A DNA stretch of 64,000 nucleotides. It comes from Halichondria panicea (lineage: Eukaryota; Porifera; Demospongiae; Suberitida; Halichondriidae). The DNA is taken from assembly GCF_963675165.1 (NCBI RefSeq), contig NC_087384.1, positions 6,621,182 through 6,685,181 on the forward strand. The letters are read 5' to 3'. The position numbers and the translations under genes were made by a program. The notes under the pieces were generated by a model. The model was not told the origin of the DNA, made no database searches, and saw only the letters and a program-made list of their open reading frames with translations. Shown here in pieces: positions 2,997-50,862 of the stretch (its first letter is position 1; every line of letters starts with the position of its first letter).

Positions 2997-3872
2997 CAGG
3001 GGCGGATCCAGAGGTAGTTCGTTGGGTTCGTACGAACTACCCTTCCACTAAGTTGATACTTTATATTACACCTGGCTAGCTAGCTTACTGTCATGACAAT
3101 AGGGTACAAAGTTCTCTCTGCATAATGTGAGGGTGGGGCTGGTACTCTCTGCATAATATGAGGGTGGGGCTGGCTATATTGACTCATCCAGCAATGGTCG
3201 CAGTGATAATTGAGCCTGGCCATGAATCCTAACAAAAGGTTTAGATTGCAACCCTCCATTGACTCCTGGTTAAAGTTTCAGGTAAGGGAGAGTTCATGGC
3301 ACTGCATACTGAATGATAGACACTGTATAGATTAATTATAATTGCTATAATAATTATATTGACTAATATAATATAATCTAGATGATCTACAGCCAGTCTC
3401 CTCTTCAAGAGAACCACCAGCCACCACCGTCTCTTCTCCAGTCATCAACGTCTCTCCTCCAGCCACCACCGTCTCTCCTCCAGTCACAACCATCTCTCCT
3501 CCAGTCACAACTATCTCTCCACTGGAACCACCAGCCACCTCCATCACCCCTCCATGTTCATCGAAGCAAGCAACGAGATCTTCCGCTGAGGATCAGCCAA
3601 TGGAGCTCTCCTGAAAGAGAAGAAAGTGCAATCACTATCCCAGAGCATGAGAATGGCTTTGCCTTGTGTTCTTTCAGATATTATATAATTTATGTTTTTG
3701 TATAATGTTTTTGTTGAAGGGAATGTGGTTAATTAATGGGCGTGGCATGTAAAAGGGGGCGTGGTCAGCCAAAAATTTCGGCGCTATGCGCCGAGTAACA
3801 CTTCTTCTTGTCCACGCTTCGCGCGGCCAAGAAGTAAGAACCCCCCTTCCCTAAATCCTGGATCCGCCCCTG
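2997..3872 (+). mobile_element. Inverted-repeat DNA transposon (hAT-like) carrying a transposase remnant
   Basis: The ends are perfect 15-bp inverted repeats, CAGGGGCGGATCCAG at 2997 and CTGGATCCGCCCCTG at 3858-3872. They are flanked by CTCCT on both sides, a probable 5-bp target duplication; intact paralogues read through uninterrupted here. Inside, on the plus strand, an ATG at 3222 gives MNPNKRFRLQPSIDSWLKFQ followed by a good donor (3282) and an acceptor near 3381-3391. It leads into a Pro/Ser/Thr-rich 15-base repeat segment that runs to a stop. That resembles the N-terminus of a transposase with the catalytic part deleted. The superfamily assignment rests on the CAG...CTG termini only. 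Confidence 0.75.
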
Positions 3873-6100
3873 CTCCTCCTGCTTCCTCACCAATGCTTGA
3901 TAGTGGCCCTCCTCCGAGGTACTCTCTGACTGCATTACAAAACTAGTCTGTCCACGACTAATGCATGTAGATATCGGCTGATAATCGCTAGGCTCTTCAC
4001 GCTTCATCAATGGCTGGTAGTGGCCTTCAGAATTGTTAGGGACAGTCTCAATATTCTCACCATCTTTGCTAGCACCGACTGTCACCATCTCGTACACACT
4101 TTGTTCTGCTCTCTTGGTAATGGTTCTCAGAATCAGTCGCAAATTGTATCTCTTTAGTCTGAAATGCATTTCCCTAGAGTCTCCTTTTGATCTATTTGAA
4201 GTGAGAGTTTGATAAACATCGGAGTTGTCTTGGCAACTCTCTTCGTAACGTCTTGGTGGAATCAACGGCTGGTAGATCTTTTCTTCGTCCTCTAGGTCTG
4301 GTTCGTCCTTCCTCCTCACCTCGAGGCTTTGTACGAATTCGTTGTCCAGCAGGTATGATCGAGGTGGGACTGCAGGCTCATCATCGCTCCTTTGTGAGCC
4401 TACACTGACTTGATCCATGATGGCGGTTCTTGAGGGAATGGCTGGTTGACCATCAAAATTCTCGACCATGAAGTCATCATCTTCAAGATAGCGTCTCGTG
4501 GGAATGGAAGGAATTGTTTTTGCTTTTTGTTCAGTTGTGTTCAGTTTCTGCTCATTTGTAGACTGATGCTCGTTTTTAGTACCAGAGTGGTGTCTGCAGC
4601 AATAAAAACAATTTTAAATTAAAATAGCAAAATGAAAATGGATGCACTTACTTTGCGTTGTCTTTTATCTGTCTTTTCTTTCTCCGACACAAACAAATTA
4701 CGATCAAGAAAGCATTTGAAATCACTACCACTAACGCAAATGCTCCACATCCTATCAATATTCCGTACTTTACACCTGTTTGTAAAAGTACACAATGTAA
4801 CGTTGGCTATATATAGTACTCACCTATTGCCGTAGTAACAGGTCCGTACACAGTGTGGGGCCCTTCCCCAGCAGCTGTCACGGCCGATAACTGAAACCAG
4901 AAAGTAGTGAATTCTTCTAGAGATTCTATAGTTGTCATGACACCCACTTCTGGCATTCTAGCGATAACAATATTGTCAGCATTCAGAATATACATATTGT
5001 ATCTGGTAATGATCCCGTTCTGATCTTCAAGGGGAGGTGGGCTCCAGAACAGCTGCACTGAGGAGTCACGCAATGATCCATGCCGTACATTCTGTGGAGG
5101 GCCACTTGGTCCTGTTACAGGTGCAGAATGGAATTAACAGCATGCGCTGTAACAATATTCATTTCACTAATATGTAGGCAAGGGAATCTAAGTTTAAATA
5201 AGGCTATAATGGGAAACAAGGGTTCTACAAATTAATGTACTCAAGGGCTTATAAGAGAAGAGGGCATGCAACTCACTACTACCCTACGTAATCACCATAC
5301 TTCATATCAGAGGCAGGATCTATATCCTATAAATAGAAACCAGTAGTGTGCAAAAGTCAAGCATTCCGCCCAATTGGAATAAATCCTTGACGTAATGTAG
5401 ATCTAGTAAACACATTTCTTCCTAGCAATAATCAGCACTGACACCATGCACTTACTGTCCTCTGGCATTTGGAAGGGTGGTAGTGACTGGCTGTATGGAC
5501 CCCTAGCAACAGTGTACGCTGCCACAGTCCAGCTGTACCTATAGTGTGGGTGTAAGGATAACTCCAAGCTTGTTCCGATTGCTTTGGCTTTGTGATCCTC
5601 GCACTGTCCCTCTGGTTCAATCTGACACACCCTCACTTCATAGTGGCGAATGATTCCATTCCTCTGGTAGTAGGGAGGTTCAATCCAGGAGAGCAATACA
5701 GCAGTGGAGTTAAGTGCACGTTGACGGACATTTGCAGGAGACCCAGAAGGGGCTATATAAACAAATGCTAATATTAGGAGTGCATGAATACACACCTGGT
5801 TCTGTGAATGAACAGCATGCACCGTGACACTACATAATGTCATACATACACTACCGTATAGCAGGTAATTTTCGTGGGGTAAAAAATTCGTTTATCTGGA
5901 AAACGATGGTTTTCGTGAGTAAAAATTTCGTTTAGTCTCGTTACTTGTACTGCATTCATACGTTCCGGTAAGCCACGCCTACATTAACATTTCGTGGAGG
6001 TCAGCTTACCCACGAAAATAACGAATTTTTTACCCCACGAAAATTACCTGCTATATGGTATTTAAATCTATTTTGGCTCATAGTAATGGTACCGTAGGCA
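3873..6100. repeat. Segmental duplication, copy 1 (pairs with 20017-22250)
   Basis: Corresponding positions keep an almost constant offset of 16144 bases across FN3-5, FN3-6, TM and most tail sequence, including introns. Only scattered substitutions and a few small indels are seen. Confidence 0.9.
5852..6060. mobile_element. MITE with taccgtatagc-type terminal inverted repeats
   Basis: The left end (taccgtatagcaggtaattt, then tcgtggggtaaaaaattcg) is mirrored at the right end (cgaattttttaccccacga, then aaattacctgctatatggta). The interior is AT-rich and non-coding. It lies in an intron of pseudogene I. A matching copy is at 21996-22203 and a lone end is at about 19803-19833. Confidence 0.85.
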
Positions 6101-8949: not shown

Positions 8950-11900
8950 CTACTCTCTTGAATACACCCATGCTACACTAGTGTCTCTATGCAATGTCAA
9001 TGACTGGTAAGTGTTCTCCTCCTGCTTCCTCACCAATGCTTGGTAGTAGCCCTCCTCCGAGTTACTCTCTGACTGCATTACAAAACTGTTTGTTAAAGTC
9101 TGTCCATGACCACTAATGCATGTAGATATCGGCTGATAATTGCTAGGCTCTTCACGCTTCATCAGTGGCTGGTAGTGGCCTTCAGAATTGTTTGAAACAG
9201 TCTCAATATTCTTATTCTCACCATCTTTGCTACCACCGACTGTCACTATATCGTACACACTTTGTTCCGCTCTCTTCACCAACGGCTGGTAATGGCTCTC
9301 AGAATCTACCGTAAATCGTGTCTCTTCACTCAGTATGGTAAAGTCACTTTTCGATCTGTTTGATGTGAGGGCTTGATCCTGCTGCAGGCTCATCAGCGCT
9401 TCTTTGCGGACTTGCACTGACTTGATCCATGATGGTGGTTCTTGAGGGAATGGCTGGTTGACCATCGAAATTCCCGACCATGAAGTCATCATCTTTAAGA
9501 TAGCGTCTCGTAGAAATGGGAGGAGTTTCTGTGTTCTTTGCATTTTTAAACAAATTCTTCATCCTTTGTAAGGTAAACCTCTTTTTTGGCTTGTTTTTTT
9601 GTTGGGGTTTATTTCCGTATAATACTGCTAATGTGTTCACTTTCTGTTTCTGTTCGGATGTGCTCAATGTCTGTTCATTTGCGTTCCCTTTTTGTTTGTT
9701 TGTAGACTGATGCTCGTTTATAGTACCAGAGAGATTTCTGCAGTAATTAATTAAAATAGCCAAATAAAATGAATGCACTTACTTTGTGTTGGCTTTTCTC
9801 TGTCTTCTCTTTCTCCAACACAAACACAGTACGATCATAACCACTACAGCTATTGCTAACGCTCCACATGATATAATCGTTCCGTACTTTACACCTGTTT
9901 GTAAATGTATATACACATTGTTGCATTTTGAGTGGGCAGATCAAAGGAAACACTGTGCCAATATCTGCCATATGGCACAGGTCAAGCCTTGAACTGTGCC
10001 ACTATGTAGATACTGGCATAGTATGGCTGAAGTTTACCTAAAGCCCACCCTTCACCCAGTAACCTGAAACGGTCCCTTTTATAGTATAACACTGTTAAAC
10101 AGATTCAGTGCCATTGGCTGGTTGTGGTTGGGACCACTCCAGTTGGATGGACTTAAATGTGAGCTCAGTGACATTGACAACCAGAGGGGCAGTAGGGAGA
10201 TCTGGGATTATTATAGTGTACCAACAATTATTGCATAATGTTAGCACACATGGAATACCTGGAGCAGTTGTAGCATTCACGCAACTTGTACCAGAGAACT
10301 CTCACTGTGACACAGCATTCGTATCATCTTGTGAACACACTCAGTCCAGTAATGTTAACAGCAGTTTCTGTGATGCTGTATATACATCTAGAGCTGACTC
10401 TTCTAGGTCCATTTTGTGTCTCACACACCACATAATATTCACCAATGATTTGCTCTGGTTCTAGCCACTCAATCAGCATTGATGTTTGTGAAGGCTTGAC
10501 TGTCACGTTTCTTGGAGGGCTGGGGGTTAGCTTTAATTTAATAATAATAAAAAGGAATCTCACAAGAAATAAAGAGCACTCACGTCCTCTTATATAGCTA
10601 GCAGGACCTACTCCGGCACTGTTGTTACCAGAAACACGGCAATAGAAGAAACAAGAATTGAAATTATCATCATCAAAAGGATCGTGGAATGTCACAAATC
10701 TATAGCAATGGACGTATCAATTCGACCATAATTATGATTGTCATGTCTACTTCCTTGCTGACAAAATCCCATTATTCGTGAACACACTCAGTCCAGTAAT
10801 GTTAACAGCAGTTTGGGTGATGCTGTATATATGTCTAGAGCTGACTCTAGGTCTAGTCTGTGTCCCACACACCACATAATAAGCATCGAAAAGCCCATAG
10901 ACTTGCTCTGGCTCTAGCCACTCAATCAGCAGTGACGTTTGTGACGGCTGGACTGTCAAATTTCGTGGAGGGGTGGGGATAGCTGTATAAAAATGAAAAT
11001 TTAATTGCATATACATGACGTTATAATACACTCACGTCCCTCCACACAGTTTTGAGGACCTTGTCCAGCATTGTTGTTGCCCGAAACACAGCAAGAAAAG
11101 GTGCACGAATCGAAAATACTATACCTAGAAGTGTATTGTATTGTTGCATTTAAAGAGTGAACTGTTATTTCCGTGAAGTAGAAATAGCAATGATCGTAAC
11201 AGAATATTCTGTACTCATCCACATCAGTGCAGTTGCTCATGTCTGGAGGTGACCAGGTCACTTGAATGGAGTACGGATTAAGATTAACGCCAGTGATCTC
11301 CACATTTGTTGGGATGTTTGGAACTAATGGAAAAGGAACATGATGAGATTTGGGTTAATGGATGTATTTTAACACATGACTTACTTGAATAACAAGACAC
11401 TCCGGCCCCCACGAAAGTATCACAGTTACTTGACGGGTAGATCACAGAACAGTTGCTCAGTGTGGCTTCATCTCCAGTGCAGTTGACTTCACTGATATCG
11501 TATGGAATATAGCGCTGATAGCTCTGACCTGTTACTAAGCTTCCTGTGTAATGCAAGTGCAAGATATAAAATCTATGTATAATAATCGTGTACACTAGAA
11601 TTCAATGCTCATAAATCTATAGCAATGGACGTATCAATTCAACCATAATTATGATTGTCATACCAACATACCTCCTTGCTGACAAAACCCCAGCTCTCGA
11701 CACACCACTCGTGTCTCTTCAATCTCCCAGATGTCTTGATATGGAGTGTACCAGCGTCTATTCACACAAATATCCACTCTCCCCTCTCTGGAGCTGGGTC
11801 CATCTGCTAACCTAACTTTTCCTTCTCTTCCAAAGCAATAGTATCCCCTGTGATGATGCAGATATGCAAAGCTGACGTAAACTACATAAGGAGGAGGATC

Positions 11901-12249: not shown

Positions 12250-12470
12250 CACACTACATTGTACACTACTGTGTCTCCATGCAATGTCAATGACTCATTG
12301 ACATTGCATGGAGACACAGATTGACTGGTAAGTGTTCTCCTTTTGCTTCCTCACCAATGCTTGATAGTGGCATTACTGCACTGCTCGTTAAAGTCTGTCC
12401 ACGACTAATGTATGTAGATTTAGATATCAGCTGATAATCACTGGGCTCTTCACGCTTCATCACTACACTA
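12250..12470 (-). pseudogene. Relic of a type 2 receptor tail
   Basis: Read on the minus strand, this gives decayed tail codons: VMKREEPSDYQLIS, then SRGQTLTSS, then, after a frameshift, HYQALVRKQKENTYQS. It matches the 3' ends of the D and E tails but has no upstream exons. It sits between intact gene G and the start of H, so a type 2 gene once ended here. Confidence 0.75.
12271..12317. repeat. Perfect 47-bp palindrome (23-bp arms, 1-nt centre)
   Basis: Bases 12271-12293 are the exact reverse complement of 12295-12317, with a single C at 12294. The sequence is the end of the type 2 tail (codons for SLTLHRDT) folded back on itself. It has the same geometry as the palindrome at 623-709. Confidence 0.95.
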
Positions 12471-12655
12471 AAATAATGTCCTGAAACTTGAATCAGTGTT
12501 CAGAATAGAGAGGCTTCATATCCTACTCATATTAATACAGCAATCAGAAATATGGCATGTTTACATGTACATTGAGTAAAAAAACATTGTACATTGAGTA
12601 AAAAATAGACATAACAAAGCATGACAGGAAGCAATACATATAACAATCATTCAGT

Positions 12656-15530
12656 TTATGTACGAATGGTGGTTTGAATAGTTTCGTACGTGTTGTCGTC
12701 CTCCGTCTGGAAGCTCAGTGGTTGGTACGCCCCCTCTTGAGATGTCCCACCCCCTCCAAACGACAGGGGCTCGTACTGATTGTCCTTATCATTCTTCCTG
12801 ATGGGCTCGTACTGTCCCTCTGAATTATTAGCCATGTCTGTCCCAACGTCTCTTGTCTCAAAGGCCAGGTCTTGATAGGCTGAGACTTCTTGTTCTTTGT
12901 AGGTCTTGGGAGGGATTAATGGCTGGTAGATCTTCTCACCGCTTTGCTGGCCAGGTTGAGTGATGGGTGGAGTAGCTATCAGCATCATTGGCTTCTTCTC
13001 TCTCTGTTTTTTGTTCATTGCAATCCCTCCACTCGAAGCAAGCACTGGTTTCTCATATCGTACATTCACCTCTTCTTTGTACTGCACGTGTCTGTGTGAT
13101 GTGTCGTTGTTTTGTGGACCACTTTTCAATGTACTGCCTTTCTCTTTGAGCTCTATATCTTCAGGAACATCGTACACAGGATCTGCAGTGCTGCAGCGAG
13201 TACAAGCAATTACAATGTTATGGATGCCTGGATACCATACGCTAGCTATTGAAATGAAAATGGTTACCTTTCAGTAGCTACTATAGGACTGTATACACAA
13301 TCAACAAATCACAATCAAAAATAATGGTGGAACACAGTGTTTGCAGTGGGTATTACCTTTGTTGACCTTGAAGAGTCACTTGTTTGCTCGTTCTTCTCTT
13401 GTAACAACAACAACAGCAGGTTATGCATGTTATCACAATACACAGAAGTAGTAACACTGCTAGCAGTACTCCAGCAGACACAGCTGTCACCAGGTTGCTG
13501 CCAGATTGTGGTTGTTGTGGTTGTTCTGTAGTGAATAATAACTATAATACCCTTCAATGCATTACATATCGTACCAGTATTTATAGCAGTCATGACAACG
13601 ATACATTGATGGAGTCCAACGCCCACAGAGTTCCCTGCTGAAACACAGCAAGTGTAGTTGGTGTTGGCAATAAGACCAGACACATTCACAGAGGTATTGT
13701 ATGCTCGTTGTATCTCTGCATTGTGGTGTGTTGATGTGCAGTTGATACTGTAGAACAAGATAGCTTGTCCATAGCTCTCAGCTGGCTCAGTCCAAGTCAG
13801 CGTGATACCGTTAGTGTAGGCCGAAACTATAGCAACTTTTTGTGGTTCAGTAGGAGGACCTGTATATAGAAAGATAAAATAATAGCTTATTCATCTACTG
13901 CATCAACATGCCTCGCTTTGTCTTTGCATCCACACAAGTCTCATTTCCTTCACCAGCTTGATTAGTAGCAGAGATACAGCAAGTGTAGTTGGTCAATGGT
14001 TGGAGGTTGCTCACAGTCTCTAGTCCATCAGCAGTGGTATTCAAGCTCACAATAGTTCCATTAGCTGGCAGGCATGTAATCGTGTAATGGGAGATGATGC
14101 CATTGATGGGTTGTGGCCTGGACCACTCCAGTTGAATGGACTTATATGTGATCTCAGTAACGTTGACAGCCAGGGGAATAGTAGGGAGATCTGAATGTAT
14201 GTATACCAACTGAAAAATGTTAGCTAAATAATCATACCTGGAGCAGTTGTTGCATTCATACAAGTTGGGATGCTTTCAATAATATCAAAGTAGAATATCA
14301 CTGTGACACAGCATTCATATCTGGTGAACACACTCAGTCCTATAAAGTTAACGGCTGTTTCTGTGATGCTGCGTATATTTCTAGTCTGTGTCCCACACAC
14401 CACATAATAAGCTAAGAACCGCCCAAGGTCTTGTTCTGGCTCCATCCACTCAATCAGTAGTGACGTTTGTGAAGACCGGGCTGTCACGTTTCTTGGAGGG
14501 GTGGGGAAAGCTGTACATTCAATACAATACAGGAATGACACAATATTTATACAAGCACTCACGTCCATACACACAGTTTTGAAGACCTTCTCCAGCACTG
14601 TTGTTGCCTGATACACAGCAACGGAAGAGGCAGGAGTCGACTGAATTAGAGTATTGTATTGTTGTATATAAAGAGTGATCTGTGTTTGTGTTTTCTTCTG
14701 AGATGTAGTTGCAATTGCTAATGCAAACAATTCTATATCCATCAATGTCGGTGCAGTTGCTCATGTCTGGAGGTGACCAGATCACTTGGATAGAGTATGA
14801 AAAAATGTTAGTGATCTCCACATTTGTTGGGCTGTTTGGAGCTAAAAGAAAAGTAAAACCTGATGAAATTTCGGGTTATGGATGTAATTAACACATAACT
14901 TACTTGAATAACAAGACACTCCGGCCCCAACGTAGCTGCTGTCACAATTACTTGAATAGTCAGTCACAGAACACCCACTCAGTGTGGCTTCATCTCCAGT
15001 GCAGTTGACTTCATTGATGTAGTTTGGAATATAGTTCTGATAACTCTGACCTGTTACTAAGCGTCCTGTACAATGGAAGGGCAAGATATTTTACAATGTA
15101 TTGCAGTATAAATGTAATTACTCTATAGAGCAATGGACATACCTATATACCTATATATATATACCATCATGCAACACACCTCCTTGCTGACAAAACCCCA
15201 ACTCTCGACACACTACTCGAGTCTCTTCAATCCCCCAGGAATCTTGACACGGGGTGAGCCACACTGAACCAAAGCAAATATCCACTCTCCCCTCTCTGGA
15301 GCTGGGTCCATCTGCTAACCTGATCTCTCCTTCTCTTCCACCACAATAGTATGCCCTGTAATGATGCAGATATGCTAAGCTGACGTAAACTACATAAGGA
15401 TTGATTGACATCTATATTTCCTTTCTAGATCTAGGATTCTAGCTTACCTCACTACTGGACAGCAAGCAAACAGTATGACTATGAGGAAGGTTGTAATTGT
15501 AATACAGCAAGGCAGCACCCTCCCAGCCAT
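12656..15530 (-). CDS. G: type 1 SRCR-FN3 transmembrane receptor with ITAM-like tail
   Basis: It appears intact. Exon 1 (15530-15448) gives a signal peptide, MAGRVLPCCITITTFLIVIL. One SRCR domain is split over two exons (15355-15180; about 15064-14912), as in group A SRCR genes. Four FN3 exons follow (about 14841-14571, 14513-14240, 14190-13910, 13860-13557), three of them with a CC doublet (TCC/RCC) in the F-strand position. FN3-3 ends in a likely GC-AG intron (GAG|GCATG), because phase is kept only that way. The TM exon (13528-13360) reads TAVSAGVLLAVLLLLCIVIT, then a Cys run and basic residues. The tail exon (about 13194-12656) holds YDVP, YQPL and the pair YEPI-x8-YEPL, plus YQPL-x9-YETI, in the ITAM pattern. 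It is a putative surface recognition receptor; the ligand is unknown. Confidence 0.85.
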
Positions 15531-16197: not shown

Positions 16198-19100
16198 CTA
16201 CACTACTGTGTCTCTATGCAATGTCAATGACTGGTAAGTGTTCTCCTCTGCTTCCTCACCAATGCTTGATAATGGCCCTCCTCCGAGTTACTCTCTGACT
16301 GCATTACAAAACGGCTCGTTAAAGTCTGTCCACGACCATTAACGCATGTAGATATCGGCTGATAATTGCTAGGCTCTTCACGCTTCATCAGTGGTTCATC
16401 AGTGGCTGGTAGTGGCCTTCAGAATTGTTAGGAACAGTCTCAATATTCTTATTCTCACCATCTTTGCCACCACCGACTGTCACCATCTCGTACACACTTT
16501 GTTCCGCTCTCTTCACCAACAGCTGGTAATGGTTCTCAGAATCTGCCGCCAATTGTGTCTCTTCACTCAGTATTATAACTTCCCTAAAGTCACTTTTCAA
16601 TCTGTTTGAAGTTAGGGCTTGATAAACACCGGAGTCGTCTTGGCAACTCTCCTCGTAATGTCTCGGTGGGATCAACGGCTGGTAGATCTTATCCTCGTCC
16701 CCTAGGTCCGGTACGTCCTTCCCACTAACCTCGGCTACAAACGCCTCGAGGTTTTGTACGACGAATGCATTGTCCAGCAGGTGCGTGCGAGGTGGGACTG
16801 CAGGCTCATCATCGCTTCTTTGCGGACTTGCACTGACTTGATCCATGATGGCGGTTCTTGAGGGAATGGCTGGTTAACCATCGAAATTCCCGACCATGAA
16901 GTCATCATCTTCAAGATAGCGTCTCGTAGGAATGGGAGGAGTTTCTGTGTTCTTTGCAGTTTTAAACAAATTCTTTATCCTTTGTAAGGTAGACCTCTTT
17001 TTTGGCTTGTCTTTTCGTTGGGGTTTATTTCCGTACAATACTGCTAACGTGTTCACTTTCTGTTTCTGTTCGGACGTGCTCAATGTCTGTTCATTTGCGT
17101 TCCCTTTTTGTTTGTTTGTAGACTGATGCTCGTTTTTAGTACCAGAGAGATTTCTGCAGTAATTAACTAATGAAATGAATGCACTTACTTTGTGCACTTA
17201 CTTTGTGTTGGTTTTTCTCTGTCTTCTTTTTCTCCAATACAAACACAGTACGATCATGAACACTACAGCTACCGCTAACGCTACACCTGCTATCAGTGTT
17301 CTGTACTTTACACCTGTTCGTAAAGTACACAATGTTAGCGTTGGCTATATATATATGGTATACTCACCTATTGCCGTAGTAACAGGTCCATACACAATGT
17401 GGGGGCCTTCCCCAGCAACTGTCACGGCCGATAACCGAAACCAGAAAGTAGTGATTTCATCCAGAGACTCTATAGTTGCCATGACATCCACTTCTAACGT
17501 TTTAGCGATAACGATATTGTCAGCATTCATAATAGAAACATTATATCCAGTGATAACTCCATTCTGATCTTCTAGGGGAGGTGGGCTCCAGAACAGCTGT
17601 ACTGAGGAGTCACTCAATGATCCATGCGATACGTTCCGTGGAGGGCCACTAGGTTCTGTGTATATAGAATGGAATTAACAGCATGTTGTTTATAATCACC
17701 TATTAATATTATGTGAACAATATGCAATGCTGGCATGTTTGTTTTCTATGTTCATTACAAATGATAGTTATAACAGGAGTGCATTCATGCACCCTGGTTG
17801 TATTGCAAAGCAATAATCAGTACTGCATGACATCATGCACTTACTGTCCTCTGGCATTTGGAAGGTTGACTGGCTGTAAGGACCCCTAGCAACAGTGTAG
17901 GCTGCCACAGTCCAGCTGTACCTATAGTGTGGGTGTAAGGATAACTCCAAGGTTGTTGTTCCAGTTGCATTGTGCTCCTCGCACTGTCCCTCCGGTTCAA
18001 TCTGACACACCCTCACTGCATAATAACGAATAATTCTATTTCTCTGTCGGTAGGGCAGTTCAATCCAGGAGAGCATTATGGCAGTGGAGTTAAGTGGTCG
18101 ATGGAGGATATTTGCAGGAAACCCAGAAGGGGCTATATGTAAAAATTATGTTTGGTTGATGAACATTTAAAAATGTACTCACCTATTTCCATGGTATCCG
18201 TAACAATGCAAGTAGTGCTTTCCCCAGCATTGTTCACAGCTGACACACAACAATGATAAGTAGCACCTGGCTGCAAAGAAAGAGAAATGTATGACGTATT
18301 AATGCTGGGGTAGTTGGGTATCATTAGTTGCTGTCCATTGTTTCCGTAAGAGGTGTCATTACATCTGATATTGAAATTGTATGGGTGACTGTACGTGTTG
18401 CGAGGCCTGTCCCAGCTCAAAGTAAATGAGGTAGAGTTCGGATTTGTTGCAGACAGCCGTAGTGGAGCACTAGGGGGAGCTGTTTATAATTATAGAAACA
18501 TTAAGGGTTTTGTGAAGAGAATGTATATACTCACTGAGAGGTTTGAAGGCTTACCTACGGTTATAGTGATGGAACTGCTTGGATTCGAATCAACCACACT
18601 TTTAGCTATCACGCTGAAAGTGTACCTTGTGCTGGGTACCACATTATTTATATTTAAATTTCTAGATGCAGGACTATTTACGTCCATAAATAATGATGTA
18701 CAAAATTAAGATGGGCAATTTCTGTAGGAAACCCGATATCCAGTGATGTATTGGTAGTTTGTCGATGGGGGTGACCACGATATTTGGACTGACCGTGAGC
18801 TCTGAATAGTTCCCCGCACAGAATTGGGTCTACCTGGAACAGCTGCAGTGTAGAGAATAAGAGTTGGGAGTTAAAATGCACTGACATGATACAACCACAG
18901 TATTTCTTACGCAGAGAGATGCATGTTGAAGAGTTAATTCCAGCATTGTTGTAGCTTTGGATGCAGCATCGATAGTTGCAGCTAGTAACACCATCAGCAG
19001 AATTAAAGGTGAGAGTGGTTTGTGTTGTTGACCCACTCAAACTAGAACACCCAAAAGCTGTACAATTAACTCTATAGCCATCGATCACATTTCTGCATTC

Positions 19101-19959: not shown

Positions 19960-22900
19960 CTACTGTGTCTCTCTATGCAATGTCAATGACTGGTAAGTGT
20001 TCTCCTCTTGTTTCCTCACCAATGCTTGATAGTGGCCCTCCTCTGAGTTACTCTCTGACTGCATTACAAAACTAGTCTGTCCACGACCACTAACGCATGT
20101 AGATATCGGCTGATAATCGCTAGGCTCTTCACGCTTCATCAATGGCTGGTAGTGGCCTTCAGAATTGTTAGGGACAGTCTCAACATTCTCACCATCTTTG
20201 CTAGCACCGACTGTCACCATCTCGTACACACTTTGTTCTGCTCTCTTCACCAACGGTTGGTAATGGTTCTCAGAATCAGTCGCAAATTGTATCTCTTTAG
20301 TCTGAAATACCATTTCCCTAGAGTCTCCTTTCGATCTATTTGAAGTGAGAGTTTGATAAACATCGGAGTTGTCTTGGCAACTCTCTTCGTAACGTCTTGG
20401 TGGAATCAACGGCTGGTAGATCTTTTCTTCGTCCCCTAGGTCTGGTTCGTCCTTCCTCATCACCTCGAGGCTTTGTACGAATTCGTTGTCCAGCAGGTAT
20501 AATCGAGGTGGGACTGCAGGCTCATCATCGCTCCTTTGTGAGCCTACACTGACTTGATCCATGATGGCGGTTCTTGAGGGAATGGCTGGTTGACCATCAA
20601 AATTCTCGACCATGAAGTCATCATCTTCAAGATAGCGTCTGATAGGAATGGAAGGAATTGTTTTTGCTTTTTGTTCAGTTGTGTTCAGTTTCTGCTCATT
20701 TGTAGACTGATGCTCGTTTTTAGTACCAGAGTGGTATCTGCAGCAATGAAAACAATTTTAAATTAAAATAGCAAAATGAAAATGGATGCACTTACTTTGC
20801 GTTGTCTTTTATCTGTCTTTTCTTTCTCCAACACAAACAAATTACGATCAAGAAAGCATTTGAAATCACTACCACTAACGCAAATGCTCCACATCCTATC
20901 AATATTCCGTACTTTACACCTGTTTGTAAAAGTACACAATGTAACGTTGGCTATATATAGTACTCACCTATTGCCGTAGTAACAGGTCCGTACACAGTGT
21001 GGGGGCCTTCCCCAACAGCTGTCACGGCCGATAACTGAAACCAGAAAGTAGTGAATTCTTCTAGAGATTCTATAGTTGTCATGACACCCACTTCTGGCGT
21101 TCTAGCGATAACAATATTGTCAGCATTCAGAATATACATATTGTATCTGGTAATGATCCCGTTCTGATCTTCAAGGGGAGGTGGGCTCCAGAACAGCTGC
21201 ACTGAGGAGTCACGCAATGATCCATGCCGTACATTCTGTGGAGGCCCACTAGGTCCTGTTACAGGTGCAGAATGGAATTAACAGCATGCGCTGTAACAAT
21301 ATTCATTTCACTAATATGTAGGCAAGGGAATCTAAGTTTAAATAAGGGTATAATGGGAAACAAGGGTTCTACAAATTAATGTACTCAAGGGCTTATAAGA
21401 GAAGAGGGCATGCAACTCACTACTACCCTATGTAATCACCATACTTCATATCAGAGGCAGGATCTATATCCTATAAATAGAAACCAGTAGTGTGCAAAAG
21501 TCAAGCATTCCGCCCAATTGGAATAAATCCTTGACGTAATGTAGATCTAGTAAACACATTTCTTCCTAGCAATAATCAGCACTGACACCATGCACTTACT
21601 GTCCTCTGGCATTTGGAAGGGTGGTAGTGACTGGCTGTATGGACCCCTAGCAACAGTGTACGCTGCCACAGTCCAGCTGTACCTATAGTGTGGGTGTAAG
21701 GATAACTCCAAGCTTGTTCCGATTGCTTTGGCTTTGTGATCCTCGCACTGTCCCTCTGGTTCAATCTGACACACCCTCACTTCATAGTGGCGAATGATTC
21801 CATTCCTCTGGTAGTAGGGAGGTTCAATCCAGGAGAGCAATACAGCAGTGGAGTTAAGTGCACGTTGACGGACATTTGCAGGAGACCCAGAAGGGGCTAT
21901 ATAAACAAATGCTAATATTAGGAGTGCATGAATACACACCTGGTTCTGTGAATGAACAGCATGCACCGTGACACTACATAATGTCATACATACACTACCG
22001 TATAGCAGGTAATTTTCGTGGGGTAAAAAATTCGTTTATCTGGAAAACGGTGGTTTTCGTGAGTAAAATTTCGTTTAGTCTCGTTACTTGTACTGCATTC
22101 ATACGTTCCGGTAAGCCACGCCTACATTACCATTTCGTGGAGGTCAGTTTACCCACGAAAATAACGAATTTTTTACCCCATGAAAATTACCCGCTATACT
22201 GTATTTTAATCTATTTTGGCTCATAGTAATGGTACCATAGGCACATGCAATGGCCAATCTAATAAATAAACAAGGGTATGTTGTGATAATGAGGTATTAT
22301 ACATTCTTTCTGCAATAATTAGCATTGACATCACTTACTGTCCTCTGGCATTTGAAAGGGTGGTAGTGACTGGCTGTATGGACCCCTAGCAACAGTGTAG
22401 GCTGCCACAGTCCAGCTGTACCTATAGTGTGGATGTAAGGATAACTCCAAGGTTGTTCCAGTTGCTTGGTGATCCTCGCACTGTCCCACTGGTTCAATCT
22501 GACACACCCTCACTTCATAGTGGCGAATGATTCCATTCCTCTGCTGGTATGGAAGTTCAGTCCAGGAAAGCATTATGACAGTGGGGTTAAGTACTCGATG
22601 ATGGAGATTTACTGGATACCCAGAAGGAGCTATATAAAAAATTAATTGATGAACAAATTAATAACAATAACAAATGTACTCACCTCCTTCCAGTGTACGC
22701 TTATTAACGCAAGTGGTGCTTTCCCCAGCATTGTTCACAGCTGACACACAACACCGATACATAGTATTTGGCTGCAAAGAACTAACTGTGTATGACAAAA
22801 TATTTAAGTCTGTTGCTATCGAGTGTAGTCCAGTGCTGTAGGAGGTCTCATCACATCTGATAGTGAAGCTGTATGGGTGACCGTACGTGCTGCTAGGCCT

Positions 22901-24238
22901 ACCCCACCTCAAAATAAATGAGGTAGAGTTCGGATTTGTTGCAGACAGTTGTGGTGGAGCACTAGGGGGAGCTGTACAGACAATAATTAATGAATGTGCA
23001 AGGAGGGGTTTGAAGGTTTACCTATGGTCACAGTGGTGGAACGGCTTTGACTCCAACCAGCCACACTGTTAGCGCTCACATAGAAAGTGTACGTTGTGAG
23101 TGTCAAGCCATTGATTGTTAAACTTGTCAATGTAGTTTGCATTTCCTGGTTATTGTAGGATACCCGATATCCAGTGATATGCTGGTAGTTTGTCGATGGG
23201 CGTGACCACGATATTCGGACTGACTGTGGGCTCTGAACCGTTCCCTGCACAGAATTGGGTGTACCTGGAACAGCTGCAGTGTGGAGAATAAGAGTTGGGA
23301 GTTAACACTCACATAATACAATGTAATCTCCTTACGCAAAGAGGGGCATGTTGAAGAGCTACTTTCAGCATTGTTGTAGCTTCGGATGCAGCATCGATAG
23401 TTGCAGCTAGTTACATAAGCAGAATAAAAGATATGAGTGGTTTGTGTTGTTGACTCTACACTCAAACTGGAACACCCAGGAGCTGTACAAGTGACTCTAT
23501 AACCATCGATACTTCTGCAGTTACTTGTACTGGGACGATACCATCTGAGTCTAATTGAGGTGGAACTGCGAATACTTATTGAAGGGCTTGTTGGATAATT
23601 TGGAGCTGTGCATGGAGTATGAAATGAAGTTATGATTGCAGCTATACAGCATGGAGGCATCTTAAGACTCACTATTAAAATTTTGGCAGTCAACAACAAC
23701 AGCTTGTGAGCATGAACCAGTGGGAGGAGTCGTAATACTGCAAGAACTCAGATCACTCTCGTGTCCAGCACAGTCAACTTCCTTGTAATAGTTAGAACTG
23801 TACGAAGTAGACGTGGTACCTGCAAACATGTATAATTTAGATCTATAATAAAACCATCATATTTATAGTCTAACTGACTTCTGTCATCACAGTAATCCAA
23901 TTGTCTGCATACAACATTAGCCAGAAAATTTGAGGGCGTACAAACACTGTACCATCTCCCTCCACGGCACACCTCTACCCTCCCAGTCACGGTGTATTGT
24001 AATCTGACGTCATTTGTCGTACACCCTTTGCAGCTTCTGCAGATAAGAAATCCAAAAACTTAACACTAGACAGTCAGCTACAATGCCAGACAGTCACACA
24101 GATACTTCAAGTCTTACCATTACTTAATCACTGTTTCTCTACCAGTACCTAGGATATAGCTAGGCCGCATGCAACTGACCTTAGTACTTGCCACAAGAGA
24201 AATGGCAGGAGCACAATTACAATCTTTTTAACATGCAT
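19960..24238 (-). CDS. E: type 2 SRCR-FN3 transmembrane receptor, three ITAM-like pairs
   Basis: It appears intact. Exon 1 (24238-24188) gives the signal peptide MHVKKIVIVLLPFLLWQ. A short SRCR domain is split over two exons (about 24037-23877, 23819-23670; SCKGCTTNDVRL ... VVVDCQNFNS). Six FN3 exons follow (about 23610-23336, 23275-23021, 22976-22685, 22631-22341, 21898-21602, 21255-20969). FN3-4 and FN3-5 are close duplicates; FN3-1 and FN3-3 have the CC doublet. TM exon 20920-20796: YGILIGCGAFALVVVISNAF, then WRKKR. The tail exon (about 20740-19960) holds SH3-type PAIPSR and PAVPPR, IYQPLIPPRRY, VYQTL and three pairs at exact 8-residue spacing: YQPL-YEMV, YQPL-YQPI, YQAL-YQSL. All exon joins keep phase. 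It is a putative ITAM-type signalling receptor; ligand unknown. Confidence 0.87.
20017..22250. repeat. Segmental duplication, copy 2 (pairs with 3873-6100)
   Basis: It covers the last two FN3 exons, TM, tail and introns of gene E, nearly identical to pseudogene I at a constant offset. The gene I copy carries the disabling changes; this copy is open. Confidence 0.9.
21996..22203. mobile_element. MITE, second copy of the taccgtatagc type
   Basis: It has the same termini and interior as 5852-6060, in the equivalent intron of gene E. It was therefore present before the segmental duplication. Confidence 0.85.
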
Positions 24239-25306
24239 TGTATACTATACAGATCTACTTTAGCTAGACTAGTAGCATTGTAGCATGTGTCTCTAGATCT
24301 ATGTGGCTGGTTTATAATTATTCAGTCACTGCTTTACTTTAATAGCTAGCTAAGCTACCGGAAAACAAAGATTACACAACACAGCCCCAGGTTTATATAA
24401 ACTGCAACGCTCAGAGCATGAATCTCATTAGTGGGCATCCATTTGTAAATTGTAATTGGTTATGGCAATGAATATAATTATGAGACCCACACTACTGTCA
24501 CATATCTAAGCATTAATTTGTACATTTAATTGGTAATCTATGCTCAATTGAATCATCATAATTAAGGCGACTGCATGCTATATAGTGATAGCTTCAATAC
24601 AGCAAGCCAACACATATGTAGACCAATAGTTATAAAAAGGGTATACAAAACACTCGGGCATTCAATGAAACGCAAAACACACAGAGTAAGTGTTAATGAC
24701 TACTACGAGATATCCCCCTGCACAAGAACTAGGTCGCACAATCAAGCACTCCTGTGTAGGCAGGCAGGAGTTAACTGTTTCAGATATTCTTATTAACAGC
24801 TGCTTTCTGTTACCTAGTAAATTAGTCAATAGTACCTCCTATAACATGTTTAAAGTTACTCTTGGACGTTACCTGAACACATTCAGTCAGTTGATTACCC
24901 TAGCTACCTTTTAACTATTTATATGTTTGTATATAGGGAGCACCTAGAAAGGCTAGTGGCCTATTATGCTAACCCTTCCTGTTGGACAAATCTTAATTAT
25001 TGATTGAGACATTAAGATAGGCAAATCACATTGTTAGGGATATCACTAGCTACATGCATGGAAATACCCACAAGCGAAGTTCGACAAATAAAAGGTTACT
25101 TTTCAGTCAGTAAAAGGGTGGCTGTATACACTCACTGGCATACTCAATATGCTAAATGGAATAGTGTTTGCGGTATTACCTTGGTTGGTTGTGAAGAGAC
25201 ACTTGTTAATGGCCACTCTTATAATTATAGCTATGCAAACAAATACCCACACACAAACAATTTGAAAGAGTTACCTTTCAGTACTATAGGACTATATCAG
25301 TAGTAC
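24239..25306. other. Spacer upstream of gene E; no gene seen
   Basis: About 1 kb of AT-rich sequence. Short open frames have no recognisable motifs. The part next to 24238 should hold the promoter of E; no core element can be assigned with confidence. From about 25100 the sequence becomes weakly like the intron upstream of the gene G tail exon. Confidence 0.5.
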
Positions 25307-25965
25307 CTTTGTTGACCTTGAAGAGTCACTTGTTTGTTCATTCTTCTCTTGTAACAACAACAGGAAATGCATGTTATCACAATACACAGAAGTAGCAACA
25401 ATGCTACTAGTGCTCCACCAAACACACCTGTCCCCAGGTTGCTACCAGCTTGTGTTGTTTGCTCTATAGAATATATTACCCTCGTAATGCATTACATAAT
25501 TATTCTTTACTAACATACGTACCTTGTTCTGTCCTGCATCCATGCACAAGTGTAATTTCCTTCACCAGCTTGATTAGTAGCAGAGATGCAACAGTGTGCC
25601 AAGGAAGCTTTTTGTTGGCCGTGAGTTTAGACTTGAATAGAGCCTTACCTAGTCTATACCTAGACACTATCAGCTTGTTAAATAGCATGTGTTCGATAAA
25701 TCGGTTGTTTACTCTCAATATACTAGCATGTTACGGATGCATCAATTCAACCACAAGATTGTTATGCCAACATACCTCCTTGCTGAAAAAACTCCAGCTC
25801 TCGACACACCACCACTTGAGTCTCTTCAATGAATTCCCCCCCTGGCCAGGCATCTCACATGGAGTGCACCAGACATCATTCAGACAACATGTCCACTCTC
25901 TCCCCTCTCTGGAGCTGGGTCCACCACAATAGAATGCCCTATGATGCAGATATGTTAAAGGTGAC
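25307..25965 (-). pseudogene. Remnant of a type 1 receptor gene
   Basis: Three pieces are in the correct order for a type 1 gene. The TM exon (25463-25307) is open with good splice sites: EQTTQAGSNLGTGVFGGALV, then a Leu-rich TM, CCCYKRR, and VTLQGQQR as in G. The end of an FN3 exon (about 25600-25525) reads HCCISATNQAGEGNYTCAW. The first SRCR exon (about 25945-25765) has frameshifts. The rest is deleted. It shows that a type 1 gene once stood between D and E. Confidence 0.75.
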
Positions 25966-26772
25966 GGGCACTCAGTACAGCTCATGACAGCAACTTCAAA
26001 AGAGAACATCCATAACTGTAAAAGGTCTAGTGTGAACAGACCACAAAACCACAACACACTTGAGAGTCACCGCCTACTGCTATGAAGTGCAGTGTATTAT
26101 GGCAATTAAGACTGGCAAATATGCATACATGAAAAAGTTATTACAATCTTGTCTTTTTGTTTTCCCTTTGTTTGATTGTTTGTCGTTTACAGGACGACCT
26201 GCATTTCCTGCCCAGTTTTCTAGGATAGCCTATGCAGCAAATGACTTTCAGAGCATGACATCATTAACAGACAAAGTACACAACCACAAAGAATGAATAT
26301 TGACATAAAGAGCACTTGTTGCCTTTTGATCTCTGAGATCAAAGGAATAGCAGTGCCAGTATATGGGATAATGTAGGACCAATATGGTATATTGCAAGTG
26401 ACCTTTAATCTACTAAGCCACCACCCTAACCAATAAGCCACACCTATTCTCTCCCTAGTTAAGACCTGGGACCACCCTCCACCCAATACTTTAAATTATT
26501 GCTTTTATATTGCCACACACAGTGAGACATTTATGGTTGCTGTGGTAAATGTACTAGACAGCATATGCATGGTTTTGATGCACTTACTATACGATATTGT
26601 AATTCCAGCCACCAAAAACAGAACAAAACTACCAAATTATTATTCATATCTATGCAGCAAGTGGGGTCTATGCTGGTTCTATATGACTTTCAAGGCAACA
26701 AATTAGTCATGTAATAACTAAACTTAAACTTCAATACAATACACCAAGACTACTCTCTTGAATACACCCATG

Positions 26773-29700
26773 CTACACTAAAGTGTCTCTATGCAATGTC
26801 AATGACTGGTAAGTGTTCTCCTCTTGCTTCCTCACCAATGCTTGATAGTGGCCCTCCTCCGAGTTACTCTCTGACTGCATTACAAAACTAGTCTGTCCAC
26901 GACTAATGCATGTAGATATCGGCTGATAATTGCTAGGCTCTTCACGCTTCATCAGTGGCTGATAATGGCCCTCCTCCGAGTTACTCTCTGACTGCATTAC
27001 AAAACTGCTCGTTAAAGTCTGTCCACGACCACTAATGCATGTAGATATCGGCTGATAATCGCTAGGCTCTTCACGCTTCATCAATGGCTGGTAATGGCCT
27101 TCAGAATTGTTAGGAACAGTCTCAATATTCTTATTCTCACCATCTTTGCCACCACCGACTGTCACCATCTCGTAAACACTTTGTTCCGCTCTCTTCACCA
27201 ACGGCTGGTAATGGTTCTCAGAATCTGCCGCAAATCGTGTCTCTTCACTCAGTATGGTTACTTCCCTAAAGTCACTTTTCGATCTGTTTGAAGTTAGGGC
27301 TTGATAAACATCGGAGTCGTCTTGGCAACTCTCCTCGTAACGTCTCGGCGGGATCAACGGCTGATAGATTTTATCTTCATCTCCTAGGTCCGGTGCGTCC
27401 TTCCCACTCACCTCAGCTACAAATGCCTCAAGGCCTTGCACAAATACGTTGTCCAGCAGGTACATGCGAGGTGGGACTGCAGGCTCATCAGCGCTTCTTT
27501 GTGGGCCTGCATTAACCTGATCCATGATGGTGGCTCTTGAGGGAATGGCTGGTTGACCATCGAAATTCCCGACCATGAAGTCATCATCTTCAAGATAGCG
27601 TCTCGTAGGTATGGGAGGAGTTTCTGTATTCTTTGCAGTCTTAAACAAATTCTTCAACCTTTGTAAAGAAGACCTCTTTTTTGGCTTGTCTTTTCGTTCG
27701 GATTTATCTCCGTACAATACTGCTAATGTGTTCACTTTCTGTTCATTTGTGTCTCTTTTAGATTTCAGTTTATGCTCATTTTTAGTACCAGAGTGGTTTC
27801 TGCAATGAAAGCAATTTTAAAATCTCAGAATTAAAACGAAAGCAATTACTTTGTGTTGATTTTTCTCTGTCTTCTCTTTCTCCAACACAAACACAAACAC
27901 ATGAAAGCAGTTGCAATCACTACCGCAAACGCTCCACCTGCTATCAGTGTTCCGTACTTAGCACCTGTTTGTAAAAGTACATGCACAATGTAACATTGGC
28001 TATATATAGTATTCACCTATTGCCGTAGTAACAGGTCCGTACACAGTGTGGGGGCCTTCCCCAGCAGCTGTCACGGCCGATAACTCAAACCAGAAAGTAG
28101 TGATTTCATCTAGAGACTCTATAGTTGCCATGACACCCACTTCTAACGTTTTAGAGATATTGATATTGTCAGCATTCATAATATAAACATTATATCCGGT
28201 GATAACTCCATTCTGATCTTCAAGGGGAGGTGGGCTCCAGAACAGCTGCACTGAGGAGTCACTCAATAATCCATGCCGTACATTCTGTGGAGGGCCACTT
28301 GGTACTGTGTATAGAATGGAGTTAACATACTAATTTTACGTATGTAGGTAGATCTACAATGACAGTCTTAGGGTAAGGGCACTAATAATCAGCACTGACA
28401 TTATGCACTTACTGTCCACTGGCATTTGGAAGAACGCTAGTGGCTGCCTGTATGGACCCCAATCAATAGTGTAGGCTGCCACAGTCCAGCTGTACCTATA
28501 GTGTGGGTGTAGAGATAACTCCAAGGTTGTTGTTCCAGTTGTTTGGTGATCCTTGCACTGTCCCGCTGGTTCAATCTGACATACTCTCACTGCATAGTAA
28601 CGAATGATTCCATTCCTCTGTCGGTAGGGAGGTTCAGTCCATATGAGCATTATGGCAGTGGAGCTAAGTGTTTGATATTGGACATTTGCAGAAGACCCAG
28701 TAGGGGCTATAAAAATTAATTAATCAAACAACAAAATAATTACGTACAGCAAAATTCACTCGCCTCTTTCCAGTGTACGCTTATTAACGCAAGTGGGGCT
28801 TTCCCCAGCATTGTTCACAGCTGACACACAACACTGATACGTAGCACCTGGCTGCAAAGAACGAACAGTGTATGACACACTATTTAAGTTTGATTCTATT
28901 AATTGTGCTCCAGTGTTGCTGTAGGAGGTCTCGTCGCAGCTGATAGAGAAACTGTATGGTTGATTGTACGTGTTGCTAGGGCTACCCCACCTCAAAATAA
29001 ATGAGGTAGGGCTCAGATTTGTTGCAGACAGTCGTGGTGGAGCACTAGGGGGAGCTGTATAAACAAAGAGTGAACAAATAACATACGTTTGAGACTTTAT
29101 ACTTAGTGAGGGGTTTGAAGGCTTACCTATGATCAATGTCACAGCAGGGGAGCTGCTTGAACTCAGACCAGCCACACTTTTAGCTTTCACATTGAAAGTG
29201 TATGTTGCGAGTCGTATCAGATTATTGATAGTTAAATTTCTGGATACAGCATTTACGTCCATAGACTGGGATGTACAAAACGGGCAATAATAATTATTGC
29301 TGTAGGAAACCCGATATCCAGTGATATGGTAGTAGTTTGATGATGGGCGTGACCATGATATTTGGACTGACTGTGGACTCAGAACCGTTCCCTGCACAGA
29401 ATTGGGTGTACCTGGAACAGCTGCAGTGTATAGAGAATAAGAGTTGGGAGTTAACACTCAAATAATACAATGTAATATCCTTACGCAAATAGGCGCATCT
29501 TTCAGAGCTACTTCCAGCATTGTTGTAGCTTTGGATGCAGCATTGATAGTTGCAGCTAGTAACACCAGCAGAATAAAAGGTGAGAGTGGTTTGTGTTGTT
29601 GATGCTACACTCAAACTGGAACACCCAGAAGCTGTACAAGTGACTCTATAGCCATCGATACTTCTGCAGTTGCTTGTACTGGGACGAGACCATCTGAGTC

Positions 29701-30635: not shown

Positions 30636-50862
<20,227 letters not shown>

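Follow-up and report, generated by a model that had tools for sequence, protein, structure and literature searches.

Does gene E, a receptor gene on the minus strand of the DNA analysed here (the window, a whole stretch of 64,000 nucleotides), end in a tail of ITAMs, and does the same genome hold the kinases that would read such a tail? The original prediction took the gene for a multi-ITAM activating receptor of an early animal, one that links SRCR/FN3 recognition to SH2 kinases. According to the available text of PMC9486129, PMC9601881 and PMC2820527, Syk is known from sponges. Invertebrate ITAM receptors upstream of Syk have been argued for from the distribution of Syk (PMC5978004, available text), and an early origin of ITIM/ITAM receptors has already been suggested (PMC2248247, available text). 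A schistosome Syk was reported to lack ITAM-binding residues (PMC2820527, same portion), so Syk can exist without ITAM partners.

A literature search outside preprints and most subscription papers found ITAM or hemITAM receptors for molluscs, insects, tunicates and cnidarians, and none for sponges. No sponge ITAM receptor is described in the available portions of PMC9505182, PMC10253181 and PMC10815962, or named in that of PMC12065747.

Domain order and splicing of gene E

Gene E had been described as an SRCR-FN3 receptor, and Pfam bears this out with six fn3 matches and a split SRCR domain. All features given for the gene lie on the minus strand. The assignment to the SRCR superfamily comes from two exon halves, of which the N-terminal part (Pfam extent 23886..23993, 6e-06; exon donor at 23879) scores 27.0 bits, over the curated cut-off of 26.1, and the C-terminal part (exon 23673..23819 with splice sites, 2.2e-04) scores 21.9 bits, under it. 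The FN3 domains follow at 23358..23594 (8.4e-06; Pfam extent, not exon ends), in three exons with splice sites at 23022..23273 (5.2e-10), 22684..22971 (6.9e-13) and 22339..22629 (1.6e-07), in an exon at 21600..21898 (3.1e-08; donor site present, upstream end approximate), and in the membrane-proximal exon at 20968..21255 (6.9e-09; splice sites). Phase-1 splice sites connect this exon to the transmembrane one at 20796..20919 (GVKYGILIGCGAFALVVVISNAFLIVICLCWRKKRQIKDNAK), which has splice sites and a hydrophobic run ending in RKKR. A phase-2 junction (GCAAA/GTAAGT to TGCTGCAG/A) then leads into the last exon, 19963..20737, with the acceptor TGCTGCAG just before 20737 and the stop codon at 19960-19962. 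The minus-strand open frame 19960-20757 closes gene E and holds all three tyrosine pairs.

Over the part placed here, from the SRCR domain to the stop codon, the protein reads as type I, with a split SRCR domain, six FN3 domains, a transmembrane helix, RKKR and a tail. Because the hydrophobic segment and RKKR lie downstream of the FN3 and SRCR exons, the tail should be cytoplasmic; a tail facing outside, which would have counted against the prediction, was not found, and judged by sequence order the motifs belong to the intracellular portion of a membrane protein. AlphaFold gave the tail no fold, its mean pLDDT being 52, and no Pfam family was found when the receptor tails were searched against Pfam. 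The ectodomain of Draper/CED-1 (Nimrod) receptors is of EMI/EGF type. Pfam gave no match to an EMI or EGF domain in the gene E exons tested, where only fn3 and SRCR passed the cut-off, so these exons do not show a Draper/CED-1 ectodomain.

Paired tyrosines and PxxPxR motifs in the tail

A six-frame scan placed all three pairs in one shared open frame, at exactly the eight-residue spacing that had been claimed for them: YQPL-VKRAEQSV-YEMV at 20215..20262, YQPL-MKREEPSD-YQPI at 20104..20151 and YQAL-VRKQEENT-YQSL at 19984..20031 (all minus strand). Two of the three fit YxxL/I-x6-8-YxxL/I strictly; pair 1, whose second box ends in V, fits only if V is allowed, and is the weakest, as foreseen. In the same scan, chance matches to the strict pattern appeared too: five on the plus strand of the window, within frames 39 to 157 aa long, and two of the 12 on the minus strand, which fell outside receptor tails at 12596 and 49071.

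At least three relaxed pairs arose in seven of 200,000 shuffles of the tail residues; with the YxxL/I/V boxes left intact, 239 of 200,000 gave at least three pairs all at spacing 8. On these figures a chance origin is rejected, bearing in mind that the pairs repeat one another within the tail. They resemble one another (a common SExxHYQxL...), so they are probably internal duplicates rather than three independent events. Such apparent copying of a single repeat makes their number less telling than their conservation.

In alignment A1, which sets the E tail beside 13 of the 22 proteins from the tail search (14 rows; P0005, P0007, P0008, P0011-P0015 and P0022 were omitted as near-duplicates or fragments), Tyr107, Tyr171 and Tyr236 are near-invariant against a mean column identity of 38%. 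In ITAM 2, both tyrosines are the same in every row.

The tail holds a second set of short motifs, which the original prediction did not mention. A motif scan of the tail, with coordinates by arithmetic from its frame, found four of the form PxxPxR, a class II SH3 ligand: PSIPIR at 20638..20655, PAIPSR at 20572..20589 (both prolines and the arginine invariant in A1), PAVPPR at 20503..20520 and PLIPPR at 20395..20412, the last overlapping a further YQPL box (all minus strand). At least one PxxPxR occurs in 43 of 45 homologues, and two or more in 40 of 45, including members without ITAM spacing; in a second type of tail described below (C-type), one such site has Lys (PLIPPK) in all eight copies read. 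These motifs suggest that a Src-type kinase or an SH3 adaptor may dock on the same chain as the ITAMs.

Spacing and codon change among homologues

Searches of public contigs gave 22 homologous proteins with the tail as query (a query that began with five intron residues) and 45 with an alignment profile, three of the 45 (P0001, P0011 and P0014) coming from the window itself. A spacing that was not conserved would have spoken against the prediction, and was not found. By pattern, an x8 pair is present in 28 of the 45 and within the tail in 27, the exception being P0044, where it lies outside the tail; at least one strict ITAM pair is present in 25 of 45. Gaps between consecutive YxxL/I/V/M boxes were measured in 23 homologues of reduced redundancy. 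The gap was 8 in 26 cases (the one in P0044 included) and 9 in three; it was 15 or 16 in 20 cases, which correspond to a membrane-proximal YQPLIPPRRY module, and the remaining gaps were scattered, mainly from 19 to 38. The distance within a pair is thus fixed, and the other distances drift.

Seventeen of the 45 homologues have no x8 pair. Two of them (P0013 and P0015) end before the region, three (P0040, P0042 and P0043) are short, and P0045 shares gaps of 11 and 14 with P0044. The other 11, the distant homologues P0030-P0039 and P0041, have unpaired YxPL boxes only, with gaps of 10 or more. Spacing and both tyrosines are therefore under constraint in one part of the family and not in these distant relatives, and the ITAM form is confined to that part.

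Codons point in the same direction. Among eight C-type copies (all pairs of copies pooled), pN/pS was 0.19 in the 33 ITAM columns versus 0.42 in the remaining 152. E and its paralogue F differ nonsynonymously at none of 117.7 ITAM sites and at 51 of 496 sites elsewhere, where an even spread would have put about 10 in the ITAM sites. Synonymous differences between E and F were also lower in ITAM codons (0.15 versus 0.28), so gene conversion may contribute by lowering both classes of difference. The comparison used eight of 13 C-type copies and the two open copies of six E-type ones; the pairs of copies are non-independent, and the figures are given without a significance value. Judged by these codon counts, the ITAM codons change more slowly than the rest of the tail, which demonstrates purifying selection.

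The receptor array and its two tail types

When the genome (131 Mb, 39 contigs) was searched with the E tail and the C-type tail, all the matches listed fell in one array of about 84 kb on one strand (C8:6565001-6648820). The E-tail search returned 15 rows, 11 of them E-type tails or a fragment and four cross-matches to C-type tails; the C-type search returned 14 rows, 13 near full-length and one fragment. The array holds six E-type tails and a fragment at 6610855. Four of the six are broken by frame shifts or a stop, and E and F are open throughout. In the window, paralogue A (3765..4613) is frame-shifted across pair 1 and its C-terminus diverges, paralogue B (8950..9742) has a frame shift near 9380, and paralogue D (16224..17158) has an in-frame stop followed by a frame shift; the fourth broken tail, L001, lies just upstream of the window. 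Paralogue F (26776..27804) has four x8 pairs (all minus strand).

The C-type tail in the window (12659..13186, minus strand) carries YEPI-x8-YEPL and YQPL-x9-YETI. Among the eight of 13 C-type copies read, YEPI-x8-YE(P/S/L)L is present in all eight and YQPL-x9-YE(T/N)I in seven; the two pairs lie 12 or 13 residues apart. E-type and C-type tails have only about 30-40% local identity, yet both contain an x8 pair.

Several other stretches were observed along the minus strand. Remnants of E-type ITAMs lie directly downstream of C-type tails, at 12298-12481 of the window and at C8:6610855-6611061 (outside the window, at -10123 to -10326 on its upstream side); this looks like insertion of C-type exons ahead of E-type ends, or replacement of those ends. 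Between E and F, 25300-26066 holds a transmembrane-like frame (GGALVALLLLLCIVITCISCCCYKRRMNKQ) together with a piece that resembles SRCR but has no Pfam match, and is probably the remnant of a C-type gene. A further frame of 291 aa with many tyrosine boxes and no Pfam family (30636-31511) may be the tail of an additional receptor type. At 40992-42527, an open frame of 511 aa resembles, by eye, a channel of the ENaC/ASIC type.

The prediction also placed the gene in an early animal, and silicatein-type motifs support this. The active-site string CGASYAF occurs three times on contig C2 and a reversed control pattern not at all, and the two copies tested lie in Peptidase_C1 sequence. To our knowledge, silicatein is specific to sponges, and a demosponge is the likeliest source of the genome.

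Kinases that might read the tail

The prediction would have suffered had the genome held no tandem-SH2 kinase, and one of the Syk family is present. A search for SH2 domains gave 71 matches, among them a neighbouring pair at C4:4842461 and 4846508 followed by kinase exons. The gene (about C4:4842437-4853620) encodes a tandem SH2 with interdomain A, no ankyrin repeats between the SH2 domains, and a C-terminal tyrosine kinase, as in Syk/ZAP-70. The best PDB match of the tandem SH2 (a query joined from three exon pieces, the inner ends of which around interdomain A have GT/AG sites) was human SYK (E 1.7e-48), followed by ZAP-70. Residues 9-254 of the query align to 11-255 of human SYK, that is, 246 query residues to 245. 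It is interdomain A that determines how far apart the two phosphotyrosine pockets lie. The arginine of the FLVR-type motifs is kept in both SH2 domains, as is the double tyrosine of the activation loop; the residue that we take to correspond to Lys242 of ZAP-70 appears to be Thr. For the kinase pieces, the best single-kinase rows were ZAP-70 (3e-77) and SYK (6e-77), while the next family reached 3e-61; ranked above all of these was an EGFR chain holding two kinase copies.

Src-like kinase frames were found at four further SH2 loci (L010, L012, L013 and L016). The one tested, the SH2-kinase frame of L010, matched SRC best (7.8e-160), ahead of ABL (3e-120). At L010, L012 and L016, the SH2 exons have SH3 matches upstream of them on their own strand (C2:7260084, 7254064 and 7449562). 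By eye, L018 is a SHARK-like SH2 frame with ankyrin-like sequence, and L017 (C3:8404573-8406287) is a SHP-like gene that combines a pair of SH2 domains with a PTP domain (HCSAGIGRTG). PTP domains also form a large tandem expansion at C4:335053-2605514, on the contig shared with Syk, and most of the PF00102 matches listed are on C4.

Discussion

We read gene E as a single-pass SRCR/FN3 receptor with a disordered multi-ITAM tail that would signal from Src to Syk, within a tandem array bearing two types of x8 tail, and put the probability of this at roughly three in four. Binding of a ligand would cluster the receptor; a Src-type kinase, its SH3 domain held on the PxxPxR motifs, would phosphorylate the paired tyrosines; and the two SH2 domains of Syk would dock on a doubly phosphorylated pair, upon which Syk would be activated and the signal passed on. 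We infer an activating outcome, and the receptor may serve to recognise microbes or other cells. Within the criteria tested, which concern sequence, gene E is a multi-ITAM receptor, and that reading does not require common descent with vertebrate ITAMs.

The same boxes could be given other tasks. YQPL, YQAL and YEPL all fit YxxPhi, the consensus of the endocytic or lysosomal sorting signals that AP-2 reads, and in distant homologues single YxPL boxes remain unpaired. On this account the tail would control uptake of a scavenger-type receptor. For such sorting, one signal is enough and no fixed distance to a second is needed, so that a constant 8 beside variable gaps is left unexplained, as are the slower change of ITAM codons and the PxxPxR motifs; we consider this account unlikely. 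A still smaller chance attaches to the even spacing being a functionless by-product of recent repeat copying and gene conversion. The three E pairs are indeed alike, F has four and the array copies are close, but the spacing persists at 35-51% identity (P0016-P0022 and P0025-P0029) despite changes in the other gaps, and it recurs in the dissimilar C-type tail.

Pairing might also be secondary, with single phosphotyrosines recruiting a SHP-type phosphatase, PI3K or adaptors, and the tail acting as an inhibitory or general SH2 scaffold. The SHP-like SH2-SH2-PTP gene of this genome could read single boxes, and gaps of 21-28 between the pairs of E and F resemble those of ITIM/ITSM pairs. The ITIM consensus is [SIVL]xYxx[LIV]; by eye, SVYEMV and SDYQPI fit it, that is, two of the eight YxxL/I/V boxes of tail E, whereas the other six, with G, N, D or K at position -2, do not. 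Of the two spacings, x8 varies less. This scaffold seems to us slightly less credible even than sorting.

Gene E shares with vertebrate ITAM receptors and adaptors (CD3, CD79, FcR gamma and DAP12) cytoplasmic YxxL/I pairs at ITAM spacing in a genome with a Syk-family kinase, and with CD3 zeta several ITAMs in tandem. Unlike the vertebrate receptors, it unites ligand-binding and ITAM parts in one chain and has an SRCR/FN3 ectodomain and a PxxPxR array; its spacing is 8, whereas most vertebrate ITAMs have 7. The YEPI-RKG... start of CD3 epsilon is, as we take it, similar to the C-type YEPI-RKN.... A PDB sequence search with two ITAM stretches found no match up to E 10, and homology of these stretches to solved chains, CD3 epsilon included, was rejected.

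Among invertebrates, Drosophila Draper with Shark and Src42A is likewise an ITAM receptor with Src/Syk-type kinases, but is of the Nimrod family and read by Shark (PMC5138034, available text), whereas E and F have three or four pairs and their genome has both Syk and the SHARK-like L018. Hydractinia Alr and Botryllus fuhc are clustered receptor genes with ITAM-, hemITAM- or ITIM-type tails, in other phyla and with other ectodomains (PMC12065747, available text). In oysters, CgIgIT2 (ITAM) binds microbes (PMC11999971, available text), as do CgCLec-TM1/-HTM (hemITAM), reported to associate with Syk (PMC13027682, available text); unlike gene E, these molluscan receptors have Ig or C-type lectin ectodomains. 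SRCR receptors are hugely expanded in one sponge, Amphimedon, which has 296 (PMC10855680, available text), and at least 213 SRCR matches were found in the present genome (150 scored of 1364 candidates). The word tyrosine does not occur in the main text of PMC10855680, and so tail signalling is not treated there.

Candidate receptors and a matching kinase are now found in one genome, probably that of a sponge, which supplies candidates for the receptor side of a sponge ITAM-Syk system, a side missing from the literature searched. As a wider and more tentative proposal, to which we give somewhat less than even odds, sponges may run their own Src-ITAM-Syk recognition, in which a clustered, duplicating SRCR/FN3 family passed from single YxPL boxes, unpaired to this day in distant relatives, to true ITAMs at the spacing of 8 that suits Syk, and a PxxPxR array in the same chain pre-docks a Src-type kinase. 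If so, ITAM-Syk receptor signalling, possibly for self/non-self recognition, would stand at the base of the animals, and the change from lone boxes into an ITAM would be visible within one family. The age of the ITAM-Syk link thereby becomes a testable question, and this form of immune signalling may date back to the earliest animals.
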